Positions 8,058-13,174 of a stretch of 13,174 nucleotides of DNA are shown here, piece after piece (position 1 is the stretch's first letter; every line of letters begins with the position of its first letter). Location of the stretch: the NCBI GenBank assembly GCA_012032575.1, contig JAAUSP010000172.1:1-13174 (forward strand), written 5' to 3'. A program made the position numbers and the translations under genes. Under the pieces are notes generated by a model that worked only from the letters and a program-made list of their open reading frames with translations, was not told the origin of the DNA and did not search any database. Source of the stretch: Anaerolineales bacterium (GTDB lineage Bacteria; Chloroflexota; Anaerolineae; 4572-78; J111).

Positions 8058-9641
8058 ATGAGCCAAGCGCCCGACTCAACCCGGCCGGCTTCGCCGGTAG
8101 ATCAATTTCAATATGCCGTTCATCTGGCCAAAGCCGGGCGCAGGCTGGAGGCGCGTGACGCGCTGCGGCAGGTGGTCGCAGCCCAGCCGATGAACCAGGC
8201 CGCCTGGCTGTGGCTGTCGGCGGTGGCCCCCGATTTGGCCGAAGCCGAAGCTGCCCTGGCCCAGGCTCGCACCATCAATCCGCTCCATCCGAGTCTGACT
8301 CAGGCGGAACAGTGGGTGGCCAGGCGTTTTGTCACTCAACCCTCCGACCGCATTACGATCCTGCCCGCCCCCCCGCCGACTAAACCCACCAAAATTGCCC
8401 TCACCCAACCCCAAAAGCCGGCCACCCTGCCAATGGACGACACCCGGCCGCATCAAGCCGCGACCATGCCGATGCCCTCACCGCAGCCGGCTGTTGCCGA
8501 AACCAGGCCGACCAAGCCGCTGTCTCAAACTTTTCACACCGTCGCCCTGATTGCGGTCGCGGTGGCGGCAACCATTGGGTTGGCTGTGCTGTTCCTGGGG
8601 CTGACTCTCCCGGTCGGAGCGGTTGCGCCGGAGCCGACCCCCGCCGATGCTTTTCTGCGCGAGCGCCCCGCTGCCCTGGACGAAGCCTGGGCCAGCCGCG
8701 ATTGGAACCGGGCGGTTGCCATTCTGGAGGGCTTGCGCCAGACCCAACCTGACTCTCCGGCGCTCACAGAGCAGTTGACCCACGCCTATCTGCAACAAGG
8801 GATTGCCTTGCGGCACAAAGGGTTCATCGAAGCAGCCCGACCCATGTTTGACCAAGCGCTGAACCTCAGCCCCGGCCAGTTACGCGCCCGGCAGGAGGCT
8901 CAGTTGGCCGAGGCTTATTTGCAGGGCGTCAAGCATTATCAGGCCGGTGAATGGCAAAAAGCCATTGAGTCGCTGGAGGCGGTGCGGGTTGAAGATGGCG
9001 ATTATGTCCACGTGAAAGATTTGCTCTACAGCGCCTATTTCAATCACGGCCTGGCCCTGCAAGGGGCCAATAAAATGAAGCAGGCCAGGGATGCCCTCGA
9101 AATGGCTGTGTCGCTGCGGCCCGATTTGCCGGAGGCGCGCCGCGAAATCGCCGACATCGAATTTGCCCTGGCCCCCCAGACCGCCCCCGAAAAGCCCATC
9201 CCCCCGGCCTCGGTTAAAGATAGGCTGATTGTCGTCGGCATTGCCGAGCAGCGCATGTGGGTCTTTGATAAAAACAAGCAGGTTTTTGATTTTGTCGTCT
9301 CCACCGGCGAACCGGGCCGCGATACGGCCATCGGCGAATTTGAAATCCTGGACAAAATTGATGTGGCCTACGCTGCCACCTGGAACCTGGATATGCCCTA
9401 TTGGATGGGCATTTACTGGGCCGGTTCGACCATGGAAAACGGCATCCACTCCCTGCCGATTGTCAAACACACCGGCTACAAACTGTGGGACGGCTACCTG
9501 GGCCAGCGCGTCTCCTACGGCTGCGTCATCCTCAGCGATGAAGACTCCGCCACCCTGTATAACTGGGCCGAGGTCGGCACGAAGGTCAAGATTGTGTGGA
9601 GCCTGGCCGATTGGGCGGCGGAAGAAGGCAGAAAAAGCTAG
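8058..9641 (+). CDS. Membrane-anchored TPR protein with C-terminal L,D-transpeptidase (YkuD) domain
   Basis: 527 aa from ATG 8058, the first in-frame ATG after the promoter (GTG 8046 is possible). Residues 16-80 form a TPR-like helical unit on the cytoplasmic side. A Pro/Thr-rich linker (about 85-155) leads to one membrane helix (about 160-185, IAVAVAATIGLAVLFLGL). Outside lie further TPR-like repeats (about 200-370), then the YkuD domain (about 386-520), which makes 3-3 cross-links in peptidoglycan or attaches proteins to it. The catalytic region has His464 in GIHSLP and Cys489 in VSYGCVIL. Tyr487 replaces the His of the usual SHGC motif; the rest of the motif looks intact, so the enzyme may still be active. 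The gene is strongly GC-rich. It is probably monocistronic, as about 820 nt of repeat-filled DNA follows. Confidence 0.93.
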   Translation: MSQAPDSTRPASPVDQFQYAVHLAKAGRRLEARDALRQVVAAQPMNQAAWLWLSAVAPDLAEAEAALAQARTINPLHPSLTQAEQWVARRFVTQPSDRITILPAPPPTKPTKIALTQPQKPATLPMDDTRPHQAATMPMPSPQPAVAETRPTKPLSQTFHTVALIAVAVAATIGLAVLFLGLTLPVGAVAPEPTPADAFLRERPAALDEAWASRDWNRAVAILEGLRQTQPDSPALTEQLTHAYLQQGIALRHKGFIEAARPMFDQALNLSPGQLRARQEAQLAEAYLQGVKHYQAGEWQKAIESLEAVRVEDGDYVHVKDLLYSAYFNHGLALQGANKMKQARDALEMAVSLRPDLPEARREIADIEFALAPQTAPEKPIPPASVKDRLIVVGIAEQRMWVFDKNKQVFDFVVSTGEPGRDTAIGEFEILDKIDVAYAATWNLDMPYWMGIYWAGSTMENGIHSLPIVKHTGYKLWDGYLGQRVSYGCVILSDEDSATLYNWAEVGTKVKIVWSLADWAAEEGRKS

Positions 9642-9659
9642 AAGCTTTGATTTCTATAG

Positions 9660-9785
9660 GAGTTACGCAATTGAAGCATTTTGTCTAAAAACTAACCATA
9701 GATTTCACCGATTGCACAGAAAAATGAAAAGTATTTTGTGAAATCTGTGTAATCTGTGGTTAAAAATTTTCAAACTGCGTAACTC
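9660..9785. repeat. MITE-like element: terminal inverted repeats enclosing 9-nt-period arms
   Basis: Perfect 10-bp ends gagttacgca (9660-9669) and tgcgtaactc (9776-9785) continue into ttgaa/ttcaa. Inside, accatagat, ttcaccgat, tgcacagaa (from 9694) pair with the complement of the run at 9734-9762, which reads on the minus strand as aaccacaga, ttacacaga, tttcacaaa. The whole can fold as one imperfect hairpin. There is no coding capacity. The ends resemble gagttacgca-type termini I recall from small cyanobacterial elements. Confidence 0.75.
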
Positions 9786-9803
9786 ATATTCTACTTTGGC
9801 TGG

Positions 9804-9858
9804 GCGTGATGCGTGATGCGTGAGCATTCTTATCACGCATCACGCATCACGCATCACG
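9804..9858. repeat. Perfect heptamer-period hairpin
   Basis: cgtgatgcgtgatgcgtga (9805-9823) is exactly complementary to tcacgcatcacgcatcacg (9833-9851): a 19-bp perfect stem with a 9-nt loop. One further 7-nt copy follows on the right. The unit is gtgatgc. No T tract follows, so it is not a typical intrinsic terminator. Confidence 0.85.
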
Positions 9859-10057
9859 GACAGTATAGCTGCTACATAGCTGCTCCCTTAATTTTCCCCT
9901 CATCCCCTGTTCAGTCTGCTTTATTTCGGGTATAATGGGCTTACCAATGGCAGAACATTGGGTTACTTCCTGATATTCAGTTGTAACAAATATGTAAGCG
10001 ACTTCGTGTCACACCGCCGTATCAAACCCTTATTATGTTGGGCGGCTGGACTAAGGG
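9859..10057. other. Gene-free stretch with one promoter-like box
   Basis: I see no gene here. A perfect TATAAT occurs at 9931-9936 but the -35 region 17-18 nt upstream is poor. A short direct repeat atagctgct lies near 9866-9885, and ccgcc/ggcgg (about 10013-10045) could form a stem. An unknown small RNA cannot be excluded; the ORFs here are trivial. Confidence 0.3.
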
Positions 10058-10215
10058 AGTTCCGAAATTTAAATCATCCCAAAATCTTAACGGGCGTGAT
10101 GCGCCACTAGGGGACCTTTGGCTCTGAAACGTGATACGTGAGGGTTTTTGGCGTAAATTCATCACGTTTCACGCATCACGTATCACAGGGTTGGGACAAT
10201 TATTTTTTCGGAACT
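10058..10215. repeat. Nested inverted-repeat element with heptamer-type core
   Basis: Outer ends agttccgaaa (10058-10067) and tttcggaact (10206-10215) are perfect complements. Next inward, tcccaa (10077-10082) pairs with ttggga (10191-10196). The core gtgatacgtga (10131-10141) pairs perfectly with tcacgtatcac (10176-10186) and resembles the gtgatgc unit of the hairpin at 9804. The layout is that of a composite MITE-like element. Confidence 0.75.
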
Positions 10216-10237
10216 GCCTAAAGTACCAAATTTTGTA

Positions 10238-10266
10238 TTGAAAACTCGCTGATTCTAGCGTATTAT
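10238..10266 (+). promoter_or_regulatory. Strong promoter for the sORF leader
   Basis: TTGAAA (10238-10243), a 17-nt spacer, TATTAT (10261-10266): five of six matches in each box with ideal spacing, in AT-rich DNA. Transcription would start near 10273, giving a leader of about 67 nt before the sORF. Confidence 0.65.
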
Positions 10267-10339
10267 AAAGTGTAATTAACACAAACTAAACAACTGATCT
10301 ATTTGCTCTTTAAAAACTTAATCTTGGTAGGTGAGGTAA

Positions 10340-10456
10340 ATGGCTTCTCAAGGTTCTCTAGGTTTTTTTATTTTGGCAGCCGAAATTGTTTTATCCTTCT
10401 ATGCCGTTGCCTCGCCTAATGTAAATTTCAATTGGAACTATAGAGCCAAACCGTAA
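10340..10456 (+). CDS. 38-aa predicted single-pass membrane peptide (sORF)
   Basis: Unrecognised small protein. ATG 10340 is preceded by ggtga (10330-10334) with 5-nt spacing inside aggtgagg, a good ribosome site. It begins MASQGSLGFFILAAEIVLSF; residues 6-25 form one hydrophobic helix, followed by a short polar tail rich in Asn and aromatics and a basic RAKP end. The TAA stop (10454-10456) lies in the loop of an intrinsic terminator (10442-10477). A strong promoter lies 74 nt upstream, so promoter, ribosome site, ORF and terminator make a complete, compact unit. Two readings are open: an independent small membrane protein, or a translated leader controlling the secreted LGFP-repeat gene that starts 67 nt after the sORF stop. 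I could not check homologues. Confidence 0.65.
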   Translation: MASQGSLGFFILAAEIVLSFYAVASPNVNFNWNYRAKP

Positions 10457-10477
10457 ACGTTTGGCTCTTTTTATTTT
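10442..10477 (+). terminator. Intrinsic terminator overlapping the sORF stop
   Basis: A perfect 10-bp stem, agagccaaac (10442-10451) with gtttggctct (10459-10468), has a 7-nt loop containing the sORF stop codon and is followed by tttttatttt. A ribosome finishing the sORF would cover the 3' arm, so translation and termination may interfere with each other. Confidence 0.85.
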
Positions 10478-10523
10478 CAGTAAAAGGCCAATTCTTAACA
10501 TTGCACAAGAGGGGGGAACTAGA

Positions 10524-11786
10524 ATGAAAACTCGAAATGCTTATCAGAAACTTGGTAAAACGATTGTACTGACCTTGCTGGCTCTTACGTTAATGATTCC
10601 ATCTGGTCAGTTTAACTTTTTGGCCCTGGCCCAAACACCGAACCCGCCAGCTATCGAACCGGCAGCGGAACCGACGCAAGTATCTACAGCAGAACCAACT
10701 GGAGAAGCGACAGCCGAGCCAACTCAAGACCTAACGGATGAACCTGTAGCGAACCCCATAGAAGAATTGACACCACAAGCAACGAACACTCTTATAACGG
10801 CAGAACCACTATTTGAAGAAATCCTGGTGGAAGATACACTTGATGAGGAAATATTATCATTCTTATCAGAAGAAGGACAAATGGATGTTGGTCTAGAGGT
10901 GACAACTTACAATGATGAGGCTGTTAATGATGAACCCGTAGATGAAGAAGAATATATTGTTGATATATTTGTTTTGTCCTCGATAGCATCACATTATGGT
11001 AGTAATGAACCCAATGCTGACATTAATGGTGATGGTATAGTAAATATTCTAGACTTGGCAGTAACTGCTAATTACTATGGGCAGCCAGTTCCTGAAGATG
11101 ATAACCAATCTGTAAGTATTGCAGGCTTCGCCCCCTGGAAAGCCATTAAAAATTTGTTTGGCTCTGCGACCTTGAATGGTAAAGGCAGTTGTGAGCCAAA
11201 AATTTGTACATCTGCTTCTGGCAGAAAAGTAGGATGCTCCTATGGAAAATTTATGGTTCGTGGGTCTATTTATGACAAATATCGGCAATTGGGACAACAT
11301 AAAGGTTTTTTGGGATGTCCAATTGAGTCTGAACAGGCGAGTAGCGGTGGTCAGCGCCAAAAATTTTATGGAGGTTCTATCTACTGGTCCCCGGATGTGG
11401 GAGCATTTGAAGTGCATGGCCTGATTCGCAAGAAATGGCAGGCTTTAGGTGCAGAGAACAGCTTTTTGGGTTATCCCATAACTGACGAAACATCAACACC
11501 CCAGCATCATGGGCGTGTCGGGCGTTATAATCATTTTGAAGATGGTTCTATTTATTGGGAACCAGGAGCGAAAGAGGCATTTTCCATTCGTGGCCCAATT
11601 CGGGACAAGTGGGCATCTTTGGGGTGGGAACGTAGTATTTTAGGTTATCCAATCAGCGATGAGCGATTTTTTATAGACAAGAAACAACAAGCATGGCAAT
11701 ATAACACATTTGAAGAAGGTTGGATTTTTTGGAGAGAAGCTGCTGGAGCGATTGCTATGGATCGCAATGGCAACAGAATCAAGTGA
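10524..11786 (+). CDS. Secreted protein with dockerin-like segment and LGFP repeats
   Basis: 420 aa from ATG 10524, preceded by aagagggggg; an in-frame TTG at 10461 is rejected because it lies in the terminator hairpin. Signal peptide: MKTRNAYQKLGK, a hydrophobic core, likely cleaved after ALA at 34-36. Residues 37-145 are acidic and low-complexity (repeated AEPT, EPTQ, DEP), probably an extended linker. Residues 147-186 resemble a dockerin: a degenerate first half (VDIFVLSSIASHYG) and a full calcium loop (DINGDGIVNILDLAVTANYYG). From about 240 come three LGFP-type repeats with a partial fourth, marked by FLGCPI, FLGYPI and ILGYPI plus GGSIYW, DGSIYW and GWIFW. LGFP repeats are usually tied to cell-wall association. 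No enzyme domain is seen. It lacks an obvious promoter and may depend on read-through of the upstream terminator. It is AT-richer than the genes to its left. Confidence 0.88.
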   Translation: MKTRNAYQKLGKTIVLTLLALTLMIPSGQFNFLALAQTPNPPAIEPAAEPTQVSTAEPTGEATAEPTQDLTDEPVANPIEELTPQATNTLITAEPLFEEILVEDTLDEEILSFLSEEGQMDVGLEVTTYNDEAVNDEPVDEEEYIVDIFVLSSIASHYGSNEPNADINGDGIVNILDLAVTANYYGQPVPEDDNQSVSIAGFAPWKAIKNLFGSATLNGKGSCEPKICTSASGRKVGCSYGKFMVRGSIYDKYRQLGQHKGFLGCPIESEQASSGGQRQKFYGGSIYWSPDVGAFEVHGLIRKKWQALGAENSFLGYPITDETSTPQHHGRVGRYNHFEDGSIYWEPGAKEAFSIRGPIRDKWASLGWERSILGYPISDERFFIDKKQQAWQYNTFEEGWIFWREAAGAIAMDRNGNRIK

Positions 11787-11832
11787 TAGTATAACCTATA
11801 AGTTAAACATTAAGATAAGGGAAGGAGAGACG

Positions 11833-11877
11833 ATGATGACCATGAAGAAGAAGTTGTTTTTAGCCAGTTTATTTTAA
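11833..11877 (+). pseudogene. 14-codon signal-peptide stub with strong ribosome site
   Basis: A very good ribosome site (gggaaggagag, 11819-11829) precedes MMTMKKKLFLASLF and a TAA. The peptide looks like the start of a signal peptide cut short. It lies 46 nt after the LGFP gene and about 25 nt before the first direct repeat of the hairpin array. It may be a remnant of a secreted-protein gene lost by insertion or deletion, or a leader peptide. Confidence 0.45.
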
Positions 11878-11902
11878 TACATCGTAAATTAAGTTTTTAT
11901 GC

Positions 11903-12132
11903 CTTTTGAGGGATTAATGCCCTGTTCACCAACAAGTTGAACATTACACCGGAGACCGCCGGGGGATAAATCGCCCCGGCTATGTAACAGCGCCCGATAA
12001 ATCGGGCTTGCCTGAGCCGGATTCATCCGGCGTAGTTTTCTAGCCCGGTTGATTTATCACCGGGCGGGTTACAATTACAGTCGAGCCGTTTTGTACAACA
12101 TCTTAGCGAACGCGACACTTTTGAGGGATTAA
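11903..12132. repeat. Four-hairpin array with GATnnATC apex, flanked by 15-bp direct repeats
   Basis: The 15-bp repeat cttttgagggattaa occurs at 11903-11917 and 12118-12132. Between the copies are four hairpins at 11958-11980, 11992-12007, 12016-12031 and 12043-12065. Their stems differ (gccgggg, gccc, gccg, gcccggt) but all end in GAT-nn-ATC: gataaatc, gataaatc, gattcatc, gatttatc. Stem changes are compensated on both arms. Flanking gtaac/gttac sequences (about 11984 and 12067) could close three hairpins into one larger fold. It resembles a REP/BIME-like or MITE-like element, with no coding potential. Confidence 0.8.
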
Positions 12133-12149
12133 AAGCCATAATTACTTTG

Positions 12150-12178
12150 TTTACGCTGTATTTAACAACTTATATTAT
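12150..12178 (+). promoter_or_regulatory. Candidate promoter of the zinc-ribbon membrane gene
   Basis: TTTACG (12150-12155), 17 nt, TATTAT (12173-12178). The implied start near 12185 would leave only about 8 nt before ATG 12193, too short to use the visible ribosome site well, so a further upstream start is possible. Confidence 0.35.
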
Positions 12179-12192
12179 AAAGAGAGGGGAAA

Positions 12193-12531
12193 ATGAACGC
12201 ACCAGACAACCCAACTGTAAGATGTCAAAACTGCGGTTATACACAGCCAAGAACAAATTACGCTTGCTATAATTGTAGAATAAAACTAAAAAAAGGCCCT
12301 GGTCCTTTCTTTTATGCAGTAAGGGTGATTCCCTTTTATCTACTAATTGGGGTAGTTGCTCCTGTAACCATATGCGTTCTGAGTGGTGGCACAATTGCAT
12401 CGCCTTGGGCATTGATACCTTTGATACTCTTTATGATACTTTTAGGAATTTCTACTGTTGGTCGATTGTTCACTTATGATGAAACAGGGAAGGATCCTGG
12501 AAGACCGTTTGAGCCTGACCAATTGAACTAA
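12193..12531 (+). CDS. Small zinc-ribbon membrane protein, function unknown
   Basis: 112 aa. ATG 12193 follows agagagggg with good spacing. The N-terminus has two CxxC pairs (Cys11/Cys14 and Cys25/Cys28) spaced like a zinc ribbon and typical of short rubredoxin-knuckle modules. Two hydrophobic helices follow (about 42-66 and 70-92), so the metal site and the polar C-terminal tail (about 93-112) should lie on the same side of the membrane, probably the cytoplasm. I do not recognise the family. It lies in AT-rich accessory DNA between the hairpin array and other hairpins, with no partner gene in reach. Confidence 0.75.
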   Translation: MNAPDNPTVRCQNCGYTQPRTNYACYNCRIKLKKGPGPFFYAVRVIPFYLLIGVVAPVTICVLSGGTIASPWALIPLILFMILLGISTVGRLFTYDETGKDPGRPFEPDQLN

Positions 12532-12572
12532 AGCTTTTACCTACCCACTCACCCAACACCCTATCTTGTCGC

Positions 12573-12701
12573 TAACTCGGCCACCCTTTTACTCTAGCAT
12601 AATTTATCACTTTTTTTAGATGGTTACAGATATTCATCTGTAACCTCATCTCGCCCAGTTAACTCGGCCTATGATCCCGTTACGGATTCAAATCCGTAAC
12701 G
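12573..12701. repeat. Two perfect 10-bp-stem hairpins with GAT-n4-ATC apex and a direct repeat
   Basis: Hairpin one (12622-12645) is ggttacagat/atctgtaacc with loop attc. Hairpin two (12678-12701) is cgttacggat/atccgtaacg with loop tcaa. The stems share GTTAC and end in GAT..ATC like the four-hairpin array at 11958. A 10-bp direct repeat taactcggcc (12573-12582 and 12660-12669) brackets the first hairpin. Neither is followed by a T tract. Confidence 0.7.
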
Positions 12702-12782
12702 ATCTAAACGTATAGCGGTGTTGGTTGTGCAATCGGCGGTGGTTTCCATCCGTAGCCGCGGCCCACCGATGAATTACAGTGT

Positions 12783-12980
12783 GTGCGATACGAAGTTGAG
12801 TAAGTAGCTGTTCGGGCTGGGCAAAGTCCAGGACGAACATGGTGTTCTGCCACCCGTACGCTTTGCGTATCCGACTATGCGTCACTGGTAACGGTGAGGG
12901 GGGCAAGAGACAGCTTGAACCCCACCGACCTCAAACCCAGGGGTGAGCGACCACGTTTGCTTGATGACCTGTCAACGGAC
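12783..12980 (+). mobile_element. Probable 5' fragment of a group II intron (domain I)
   Basis: Starts with gtgcgatacgaagttgag, fitting the GUGYG 5' end and early domain I of bacterial group II introns as I remember them. The stem gttcg..ctgg..ccag..cgaac (about 12810-12838) is followed by atggtgttctgccaccc, which matches the conserved stretch ending in GCCAACC/GCCACCC. Then tacgctttgcgta and tcactggtaacggtga form hairpins. The usual domain V and a reverse transcriptase ORF are absent before 13174, so it would be a truncated copy. A hairpin (about 12728-12770) lies just upstream. This rests on memory of intron sequences, not on a structural search. Confidence 0.45.
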
Positions 12981-13017
12981 AGCGGTTCTTTTTTTGCGCC
13001 TGGCGGATTTTATCAAT

Positions 13018-13055
13018 AAAAAAAGCCACCCCCAACCCAAAAGGTCAAAGGTGGC
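13018..13055 (-). terminator. Minus-strand intrinsic terminator
   Basis: On the minus strand gccacc (13055-13050) pairs with ggtggc (13030-13025), with an inner acc/ggt pairing, followed by seven T's (13024-13018). It implies a minus-strand gene ending just to the right; an open frame from the window edge stops at TAG 13112-13110, but the visible 20 codons are too few to identify. Confidence 0.6.
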
Positions 13056-13174
13056 CGCGCTGTTTACGGAATCATTAAGTAATGGATACCCTACAACGTA
13101 TGCAGCGAGCTATCCGTGAGCAAAATTTATCGCATCAGTTCTCATGCTAACGAGGAAATGGCTGACGATTTCTT
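13056..13174. other. Window-edge stretch, coding status unclear
   Basis: On the plus strand a 22-codon ORF (13082-13150, MDTLQRMQRAIREQNLSHQF and two more residues) has no ribosome site. On the minus strand a frame open from the edge stops at 13110, ahead of the minus-strand terminator, and is the more likely gene end. I cannot choose between them. Confidence 0.25.

Follow-up and report, generated by a model that had tools for sequence, protein, structure and literature searches.

In this study, the region ahead of a gene for a secreted LGFP-repeat protein was analysed in Anaerolineales DNA of 13,174 nucleotides (this whole stretch is hereafter called the window), and was interpreted, with a probability of roughly 0.4, as a translation-coupled transcription attenuator of the pyrL/pyrBI type whose leader open reading frame (ORF) would sequester its own Shine-Dalgarno (SD) sequence. 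The evidence for this reading comes from a small ORF (sORF) whose stop codon lies inside an intrinsic terminator (1/44 in the nearest relative), from the joint occurrence of the ORF and its SD sequence (6/5000 shuffles), and from a helix predicted over that SD sequence (2/5000 shuffles; 0/273 genes by z score). The evidence against it includes the lack of any sORF homologue in the searches, the finding that 0/14 LGFP genes had a terminator within 140 nt upstream, the early pairing predicted for the SD sequence (0.67-0.79), a minus-strand frame with a higher codon score and an unremarkable stability of the whole leader (z -1.6). The sequence elements, their excess over chance and their predicted folding were observed and are described below.

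Results

Promoter, ribosome-binding site and coding potential

A sigma-70-type promoter, TTGAAA-17-TATTAT, was located on the plus strand at 10238..10266 and agrees with the consensus at 10/12 positions. The initial annotation had placed a near-consensus promoter here, and it is indeed present at that position with modest chance support. It is regarded as plausible, not compelling, because an equally good promoter arose in 75/3000 dinucleotide shuffles of 10222-10339. A divergent promoter-like sequence (TTTAGT-17-TATAAT, 9/12) overlaps it at 10290-10262 of the minus strand. Transcription from about 10273, a start inferred from the -10 hexamer by position alone, would give a 5' untranslated leader at 10273..10339 (plus strand), and the nascent stretch 10273-10345 is predicted to fold weakly (-8.4 kcal/mol).

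The sORF is preceded by the SD sequence AGGTGA at 10329..10334 (plus strand), which has six contiguous matches to AGGAGGTGA and a 5-nt spacer to the ATG at 10340; the good ribosome site described earlier for the sORF was thus recovered. The 38-codon sORF MASQGSLGFFILAAEIVLSFYAVASPNVNFNWNYRAKP occupies 10340..10456 of the plus strand and ends with the TAA at 10454-10456. All shuffle figures for the leader parts refer to this stretch itself and are uncorrected for its selection from 13 kb. ATG-initiated ORFs of 38 codons or more, preceded by an SD of 5 bases or longer, arose in 6/5000 shuffles of 10222-10523, and the ORF length alone (at least 38 codons) was reached by 452/5000 and is not beyond chance. 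The in-frame codon score, for which the LGFP gene and a 112-aa gene formed the sole reference, was equalled by 9/3000 stop-free shuffles, but one minus-strand frame over the sORF outscored the sORF frame (6.76 versus 3.41, stop codons skipped); coding is therefore likely rather than proven.

The hydrophobic helix attributed to the peptide fared less well than the ORF, which was confirmed. Its Kyte-Doolittle maximum of 2.15 over 17 residues was reached by 112/2000 stop-free shuffles, little above composition, so the helix is largely a product of the T-rich sequence. Common gene callers use a 90-nt minimum, and the remark that the unit is below usual gene-calling length is doubtful for an sORF of 117 nt. 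The T-rich run GGTTTTTTTATTTTG lies inside the sORF at 10361..10375 (plus strand; T7AT4 at 10363-10374) and may be an RNA polymerase (RNAP) pause site by analogy with the pyrBI leader, as described in an excerpt of PMC3641672.

A terminator enclosing the stop codon

The sORF runs into an intrinsic terminator stem-loop at 10442..10468 of the plus strand. A perfect 10-bp stem (10442-10451/10459-10468) closes a 7-nt loop, CGTAAAC, which contains the sORF TAA, and a T-rich tail, TTTTATTTTC, follows at 10469-10478. The description of the stop codon within the loop of a perfect 10-bp stem was exact, and a Watson-Crick stem of at least 10 ahead of a T-run was found in 2/5000 shuffles of 10267-10523. 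The predicted energy of 10440-10480 is -14.5 kcal/mol, and the terminator begins 102 nt past the sORF ATG. The nonamer TTTGGCTCT of the terminator 3' arm (10460-10468) was seen by eye to recur at 10117-10125 in the upstream repeat element; this recurrence is unexplained and may be due to chance.

Terminators were surveyed in 1.2 Mb of the nearest relative (G001), with genes called crudely as long ORFs. The survey returned 119 terminator-like sites: 28 inside a called ORF, 44 with a same-strand gene end at most 300 nt away and 47 lacking such a gene end. The stop codon was inside the hairpin at 1 of these 44, and its distance to the terminator at the other 43 was 0-9 nt (3 sites), 10-29 nt (15), 30-99 nt (14) and 100-300 nt (11). 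Terminators that enclose a stop codon are therefore uncommon in G001. A smaller survey of 24 Chloroflexota loci plus the window, with 25 sites and one stop codon in a hairpin, is superseded by these data.

Intergenic SD-bearing sORFs of 20-60 codons numbered 35 in the 1.2 Mb of G001, and two of them had a terminator near the stop codon. In one of 21 codons, a 7-pair hairpin contains the stop codon and the SD sequence is free of such a helix (z 0.0); the other, also of 21 codons, has its terminator 22 nt away and a z of -3.1. Neither joins a stop codon in a hairpin to an SD helix of the kind predicted in the window, for which the same script gave a z of -4.45. One further SD-bearing sORF, with no terminator, is present on the minus strand of the window.

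A predicted helix over the SD sequence

Beyond the initial annotation, the analysis adds a helix that is predicted to hide the SD sequence and start codon of the sORF. Its 5' arm lies at 10328..10344 (plus strand) and consists of 12 bp, the bulged A of AUG and 4 bp; its 3' arm, the anti-SD, lies at 10403..10418 (plus strand) in sORF codons 22-27 and would pair with 10328-10339 and 10341-10344. The 16 predicted pairs give a duplex of -25.9 kcal/mol. The helix was found by viewing the fold, and its statistics are therefore after the fact: its energy was reached by 2/5000 shuffles of the ORF body and by 7/5000 (GC 0.4) and 4/5000 (GC 0.5) synonymous recodings of the same peptide. As few recodings equal it, the peptide alone does not force the helix. 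With the same proviso, raw pairing energy was as low at 2/465 control positions elsewhere in the window and in 1/273 SD-bearing genes from 1.2 Mb of G001, and the z of -4.65 compares with a lowest z of -2.86 among those genes (0/273 as extreme). The whole leader 10273-10440 is not unusually stable (z -1.6, 67/1000), and the portion 10320-10425 is (z -2.9, 5/1000).

In growing transcripts, the SD sequence is predicted to be unpaired at 0.21-0.33 for ends at 10345-10410, at 0.08 for 10415 and at 0.0 from 10420 on, and the start codon at 0.08-0.69 before 10415 and 0.12 thereafter. The early window for initiation would be narrow and partly open, because the SD sequence is 0.67-0.79 paired before the anti-SD is made. 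Translation of the sORF is likely conditional, given such a helix. Two other devices were considered and rejected: an RNA thermometer, as the SD helix appears very stable, and an antiterminator formed between the 5' untranslated region and the terminator 5' arm, as this pairing is too weak (-8.2 versus -16.6 kcal/mol for the terminator pairing).

The downstream LGFP gene

The gene following on the plus strand (10524..11786) encodes a 420-aa secreted protein with a Pfam LGFP match (E 2.6e-47). The protein has a signal peptide-like N-terminus (by eye), a PT-rich linker, a dockerin-like repeat and LGFP repeats; Dockerin_1 (E 0.0014) and PT (E 0.0041) are weak matches below their cut-offs. The gene starts 45 nt past the terminator tail and has an SD-like AGGGGGG at 10510..10516 (plus strand), 7 nt ahead of the ATG at 10524, and 10508-10518 is about 0.57 unpaired in the predicted fold of 10469-10600. 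A consensus scan found no plus-strand promoter of at least 9/12 in 10267-10523, the best matches being 8/12 at 10345-10374 and 10474-10501. These results agree with the earlier view of a gene with its own ribosome site and no clear promoter, and the refuting case named with it, a separate promoter between 10478 and 10524, was likewise represented by no plus-strand match of at least 9/12 in the consensus scan. Directly 3' of the LGFP gene, the tiny ORF MMTMKKKLFLASLF at 11833-11877 has a strong SD and resembles a truncated signal peptide by eye.

Among the best 120 of 1850 matches to the LGFP protein, the next best after itself was 51% identical over 40%, and no relative was found in viral contigs. 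Of 396 genomes sampled across the class, 22 contained LGFP, and neither nearest relative genome (L001, L002) gave an LGFP match. Upstream regions were inspected at 23 of 30 LGFP loci (L089-L110, L117); among the seven left out, six share an ORF with an examined locus and L116 is a 74-residue frame about 0.6 kb from L103. In nine of the 23 the frame extends past the 5' edge of the locus; the 5' end is visible in the other 14. Whether sORF and terminator always precede such genes was a check named in the initial annotation; none of these 14 class LGFP genes had a terminator-like hairpin within 140 nt upstream. Two (L099, L103) had one farther up, within 400 nt, whose end is 146 and 179 nt away from the first possible start, and the hairpin of L099 comes after an apparent tRNA (by eye).

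Searches for relatives and genomic setting

The sORF peptide gave no match at E <= 10 in two sets of 6 and 12 genomes (five genomes common to both) or in plasmids and phages, none among 5.8 billion proteins and none in Pfam, PHROG or NCBIfam, whose models are hard to apply to short peptides. Chance-level matches were obtained in 31 of 396 class genomes at E <= 1, the best (0.039) with internal stops. As these searches included no positive control, they may have missed a diverged relative. The peptide search proposed in the initial annotation was thus carried out over class genomes and gave no convincing relative. For the leader DNA against six genomes, the sole match under E 0.01 (3.7e-4) comprised 23 bases and lay within the terminal repeat of the adjacent repeat element. 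No Rfam model reached its gathering score anywhere in the window; relaxing the limit to E 2 in 9600-13174 added just two microRNA models, both outside the leader. Within the sequences searched, the sORF-terminator-LGFP arrangement is unique to this contig.

The left part of the window aligns with two Anaerolineales metagenome-assembled genomes, at 82-87% identity over the main pieces in L001 and 77-80% in L002, and these alignments stop at 9622 and 9596, short repeats aside. Mean GC is 0.55 before 9500 and drops to 0.42 in 9501-12500. The stretch 9640-13174 is low in GC, rich in repeats and unaligned to the two nearest relatives beyond short repeats, and it includes the LGFP gene; it was probably acquired or rearranged. 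No match to 9640-12600 was found in plasmids or phages. A chimeric contig is thought unlikely, because repeats of the right side (10050-10225, 11913-12117 and 12905-12961) also occur in G001.

Several repeats were noted in this part of the window. A MITE-like element at 10054-10219, one end of which comes within about 15-18 bp of the sORF promoter on its upstream side, has similar elements in L081, L083, L084, L088 and L164. Its terminal inverted repeats approximate AGGCAGTTCC...TTGTCCCAA, and the cores differ between copies, several being made up of different short palindromic repeats; both ends were recognised by eye in L081, L083 and L088, one was clear in L084, and L164 was recognised by alignment only. 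A palindromic GTGATGCGTGATGCG repeat is found at 9804-9863 of the window and at 8032-8084 of L001, following the same YkuD/TPR gene in both genomes with different surrounding sequence. Just past the YkuD gene, an inverted-repeat element at 9656-9789 has 27-nt ends that are 78% complementary; by eye it is not at that place in L001, although a 60-nt segment that is 75% similar occurs there some 0.7 kb farther along. The dispersed repeat at 11913-12117 is 87% identical to a G001 stretch (L136), and that at 12905-12961 is a 57-nt unit present at four G001 places and partly at one G002 place.

A predicted 112-aa protein at 12193-12531 has a zinc-ribbon-like CxxC...CxxC start and a hydrophobic part. 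It had no Pfam match at E 0.01, weak matches only in PHROG and NCBIfam (best E 0.0073) and no relative in viral contigs. An RNase P-like RNA at 12770-12995 was considered and discarded, having no support from Rfam or from its folding energy (-76.7; shuffles average -71.4, sd 4.8).

Discussion

Proposed attenuation and its precedents

According to the proposed attenuator, the promoter at 10238 would yield a leader RNA which, if untranslated, would adopt two compatible hairpins: 10328-10344/10403-10418 would hide the sORF SD sequence and start codon, and 10442-10468 would end transcription and keep the LGFP gene off. A ribosome that initiates before synthesis of the anti-SD would translate through the SD helix; the anti-SD follows about 60 nt after the ORF start, so initiation would have to be early. 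At the stop codon in the loop, this ribosome would cover the terminator stem and transcription would continue into the LGFP gene, which would then be translated from its own SD sequence. For read-through, the polymerase would have to pause or the ribosome to be fast, and the candidate signal would be RNAP pausing in the U-rich run or any change in initiation. We infer promoter use, sORF translation, the race, read-through and the signal from the arrangement of the elements. The ribosome-masking switch of the initial annotation is partly supported: it fits the lack of a good promoter match (at least 9/12) ahead of the LGFP gene, is physically sound and has E. coli precedents, but no relative of the sORF was found in the searches. 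A narrower proposal, which we hold to be rather doubtful, is a kinetic 'one-shot' switch, in which a leader ORF with its own anti-SD would be translated only by a ribosome loading in a short co-transcriptional window, and this lone translation would let RNAP pass the terminator and turn on a secreted or surface protein. Such a switch would combine toxin-mRNA-style self-sequestration with pyrL-style attenuation, in Chloroflexota.

Published systems are cited here from excerpts of the papers. Translation in E. coli almost fully represses a terminator located a few bp past a stop codon, and uncoupling restores termination (PMC4824070, excerpt). The same excerpt reports that termination is still efficient at sites within the first ~100 bp of a gene, which weakens the attenuator reading because the present terminator begins 102 nt after the ATG. 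The excerpt of PMC5021804 describes the pyrL leader of pyrBI as working via transcription-translation coupling and gives a ~18-fold cut in expression by the pyrL hairpin in one E. coli reporter, so coupling would have failed on most transcripts there. A stop-to-terminator spacing of a few nucleotides is described for uncoupled B. subtilis (PMC7858274, excerpt), unlike the pattern in G001, where 40/44 terminators were at least 10 nt from the stop codon.

The closest likeness is to E. coli pyrL-pyrBI, in which, according to excerpts of PMC5021804, PMC3641672 and PMC4824070, a short leader ORF runs into an intrinsic terminator with a U-rich stretch overlapping the ORF, and the ribosome prevents the terminator hairpin. 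Here, too, an SD-bearing leader ORF (10340-10456) lies upstream of and overlaps an intrinsic terminator (10442-10468), and the same-strand downstream gene has no promoter of its own by consensus scan, two 8/12 matches remaining. The leader differs from pyrL in that an internal helix is predicted to lock its own SD sequence, no connection with UTP is indicated, the phylum is different and a secreted LGFP protein, not a set of pyrimidine genes, is encoded downstream; the likeness claimed is one of arrangement, not of sequence. The leader may work like pyrL and is not filed as a pyrL attenuator, because the downstream gene encodes an LGFP protein. No Rfam covariance model matched the leader, and no homology to a known toxin family was seen in Pfam, PHROG or NCBIfam; the leader is filed under no described family.

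The H. pylori aapA3 peptide is hydrophobic, and E. coli gnd is a long gene under growth-rate control, which to our knowledge has no leader terminator. The aapA3/IsoA3 system resembles the leader in having a short ORF (90 nt there) whose SD sequence can be sequestered by segments of the 5' untranslated region and ORF; there, two transient hairpins give way to a stable long-distance 5'-3' pairing (PMC6733600, excerpt), whereas one stable intra-ORF helix is predicted here, no convincing antisense RNA was found and a same-strand secreted-protein gene follows. An anti-SD inside the gene it controls is also known from gnd, as indicated by a reference title in the excerpt of PMC6733600. In the Salmonella mgtCBR leader (mgtM, mgtP), translation of short leader ORFs decides operon transcription through alternative stem-loops (PMC3641672, excerpt), and no strong alternative was found here (-8.2 versus -16.6 kcal/mol).

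Alternative explanations

The main rival to the attenuator is a small membrane peptide: the sORF would be an independent, self-silenced gene, possibly of the type I toxin kind, and the LGFP gene would be expressed by leakage or from an unrecognised promoter. The unit has the complete monocistronic anatomy of promoter, sORF and terminator, the peptide has a hydrophobic segment, and anti-SD hairpins in the 5' untranslated region and ORF are known from the aapA3 mRNA of H. pylori (PMC6733600, excerpt). We nonetheless judge this account unlikely. The hydrophobicity is modest and near compositional expectation (112/2000), although the SD sequence is predicted to be sequestered as in such toxins, and the family databases returned no match. 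No convincing antisense RNA was detected: the minus-strand promoter matches that would read across the sORF lie at 10593-10563 (9/12, poor spacer of 19 nt), at 10467-10437 (8/12, spacer of 19 nt) and about 400 nt off at 10880-10853 (9/12), and no minus-strand terminator was found in 9800-10900. A stop codon within its own terminator would also weaken termination of a translated gene, as the excerpt of PMC4824070 would imply.

The strong local structure at 10320-10425 (z -2.9), the terminator, the absence of a protein homologue and the higher-scoring minus-strand frame would also suit a two-hairpin non-coding RNA of roughly 200 nt, in which the ORF and SD sequence are accidental and the LGFP gene depends on a separate promoter or on read-through. 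This is improbable, as an ATG ORF of such length with such an SD occurred in 6/5000 shuffles, the in-frame codon score was reached by 9/3000 stop-free shuffles, and neither at gathering score nor up to E 2 did an Rfam model fall on the leader. Coincidence, in which an ordinary short gene and its terminator stand beside an unrelated gene in a recently acquired or rearranged stretch, low in GC and full of repeats, with no regulation, and the helix and stop position arose by chance, is improbable to the same degree. It is consistent with the end of the alignment to relatives at 9622, the GC change from 0.55 to 0.42, the abundant repeats, the lack of any conserved part and the fact that SD-bearing intergenic sORFs as such are hardly rare (G001 has 35 in 1.2 Mb, and the minus strand of the window has a second), but it leaves the joint rarity of a stop codon in the terminator (1/44) and the SD helix (0/273 by z) to chance.

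Implications for Anaerolineae

A text search of the literature found no paper joining 'LGFP repeat' with 'Chloroflex', and no wider absence is claimed; a broader search on leader peptides and attenuation gave, among the matches listed, at most 2 Chloroflexi mentions. The main text of PMC13323073 has no mention of Chloroflexota or Chloroflexi. If the attenuator reading is true, this compact leader design would place a secreted protein of Anaerolineae under an attenuator gated by ribosomes, and coupling of transcription to translation in these bacteria would be implied.
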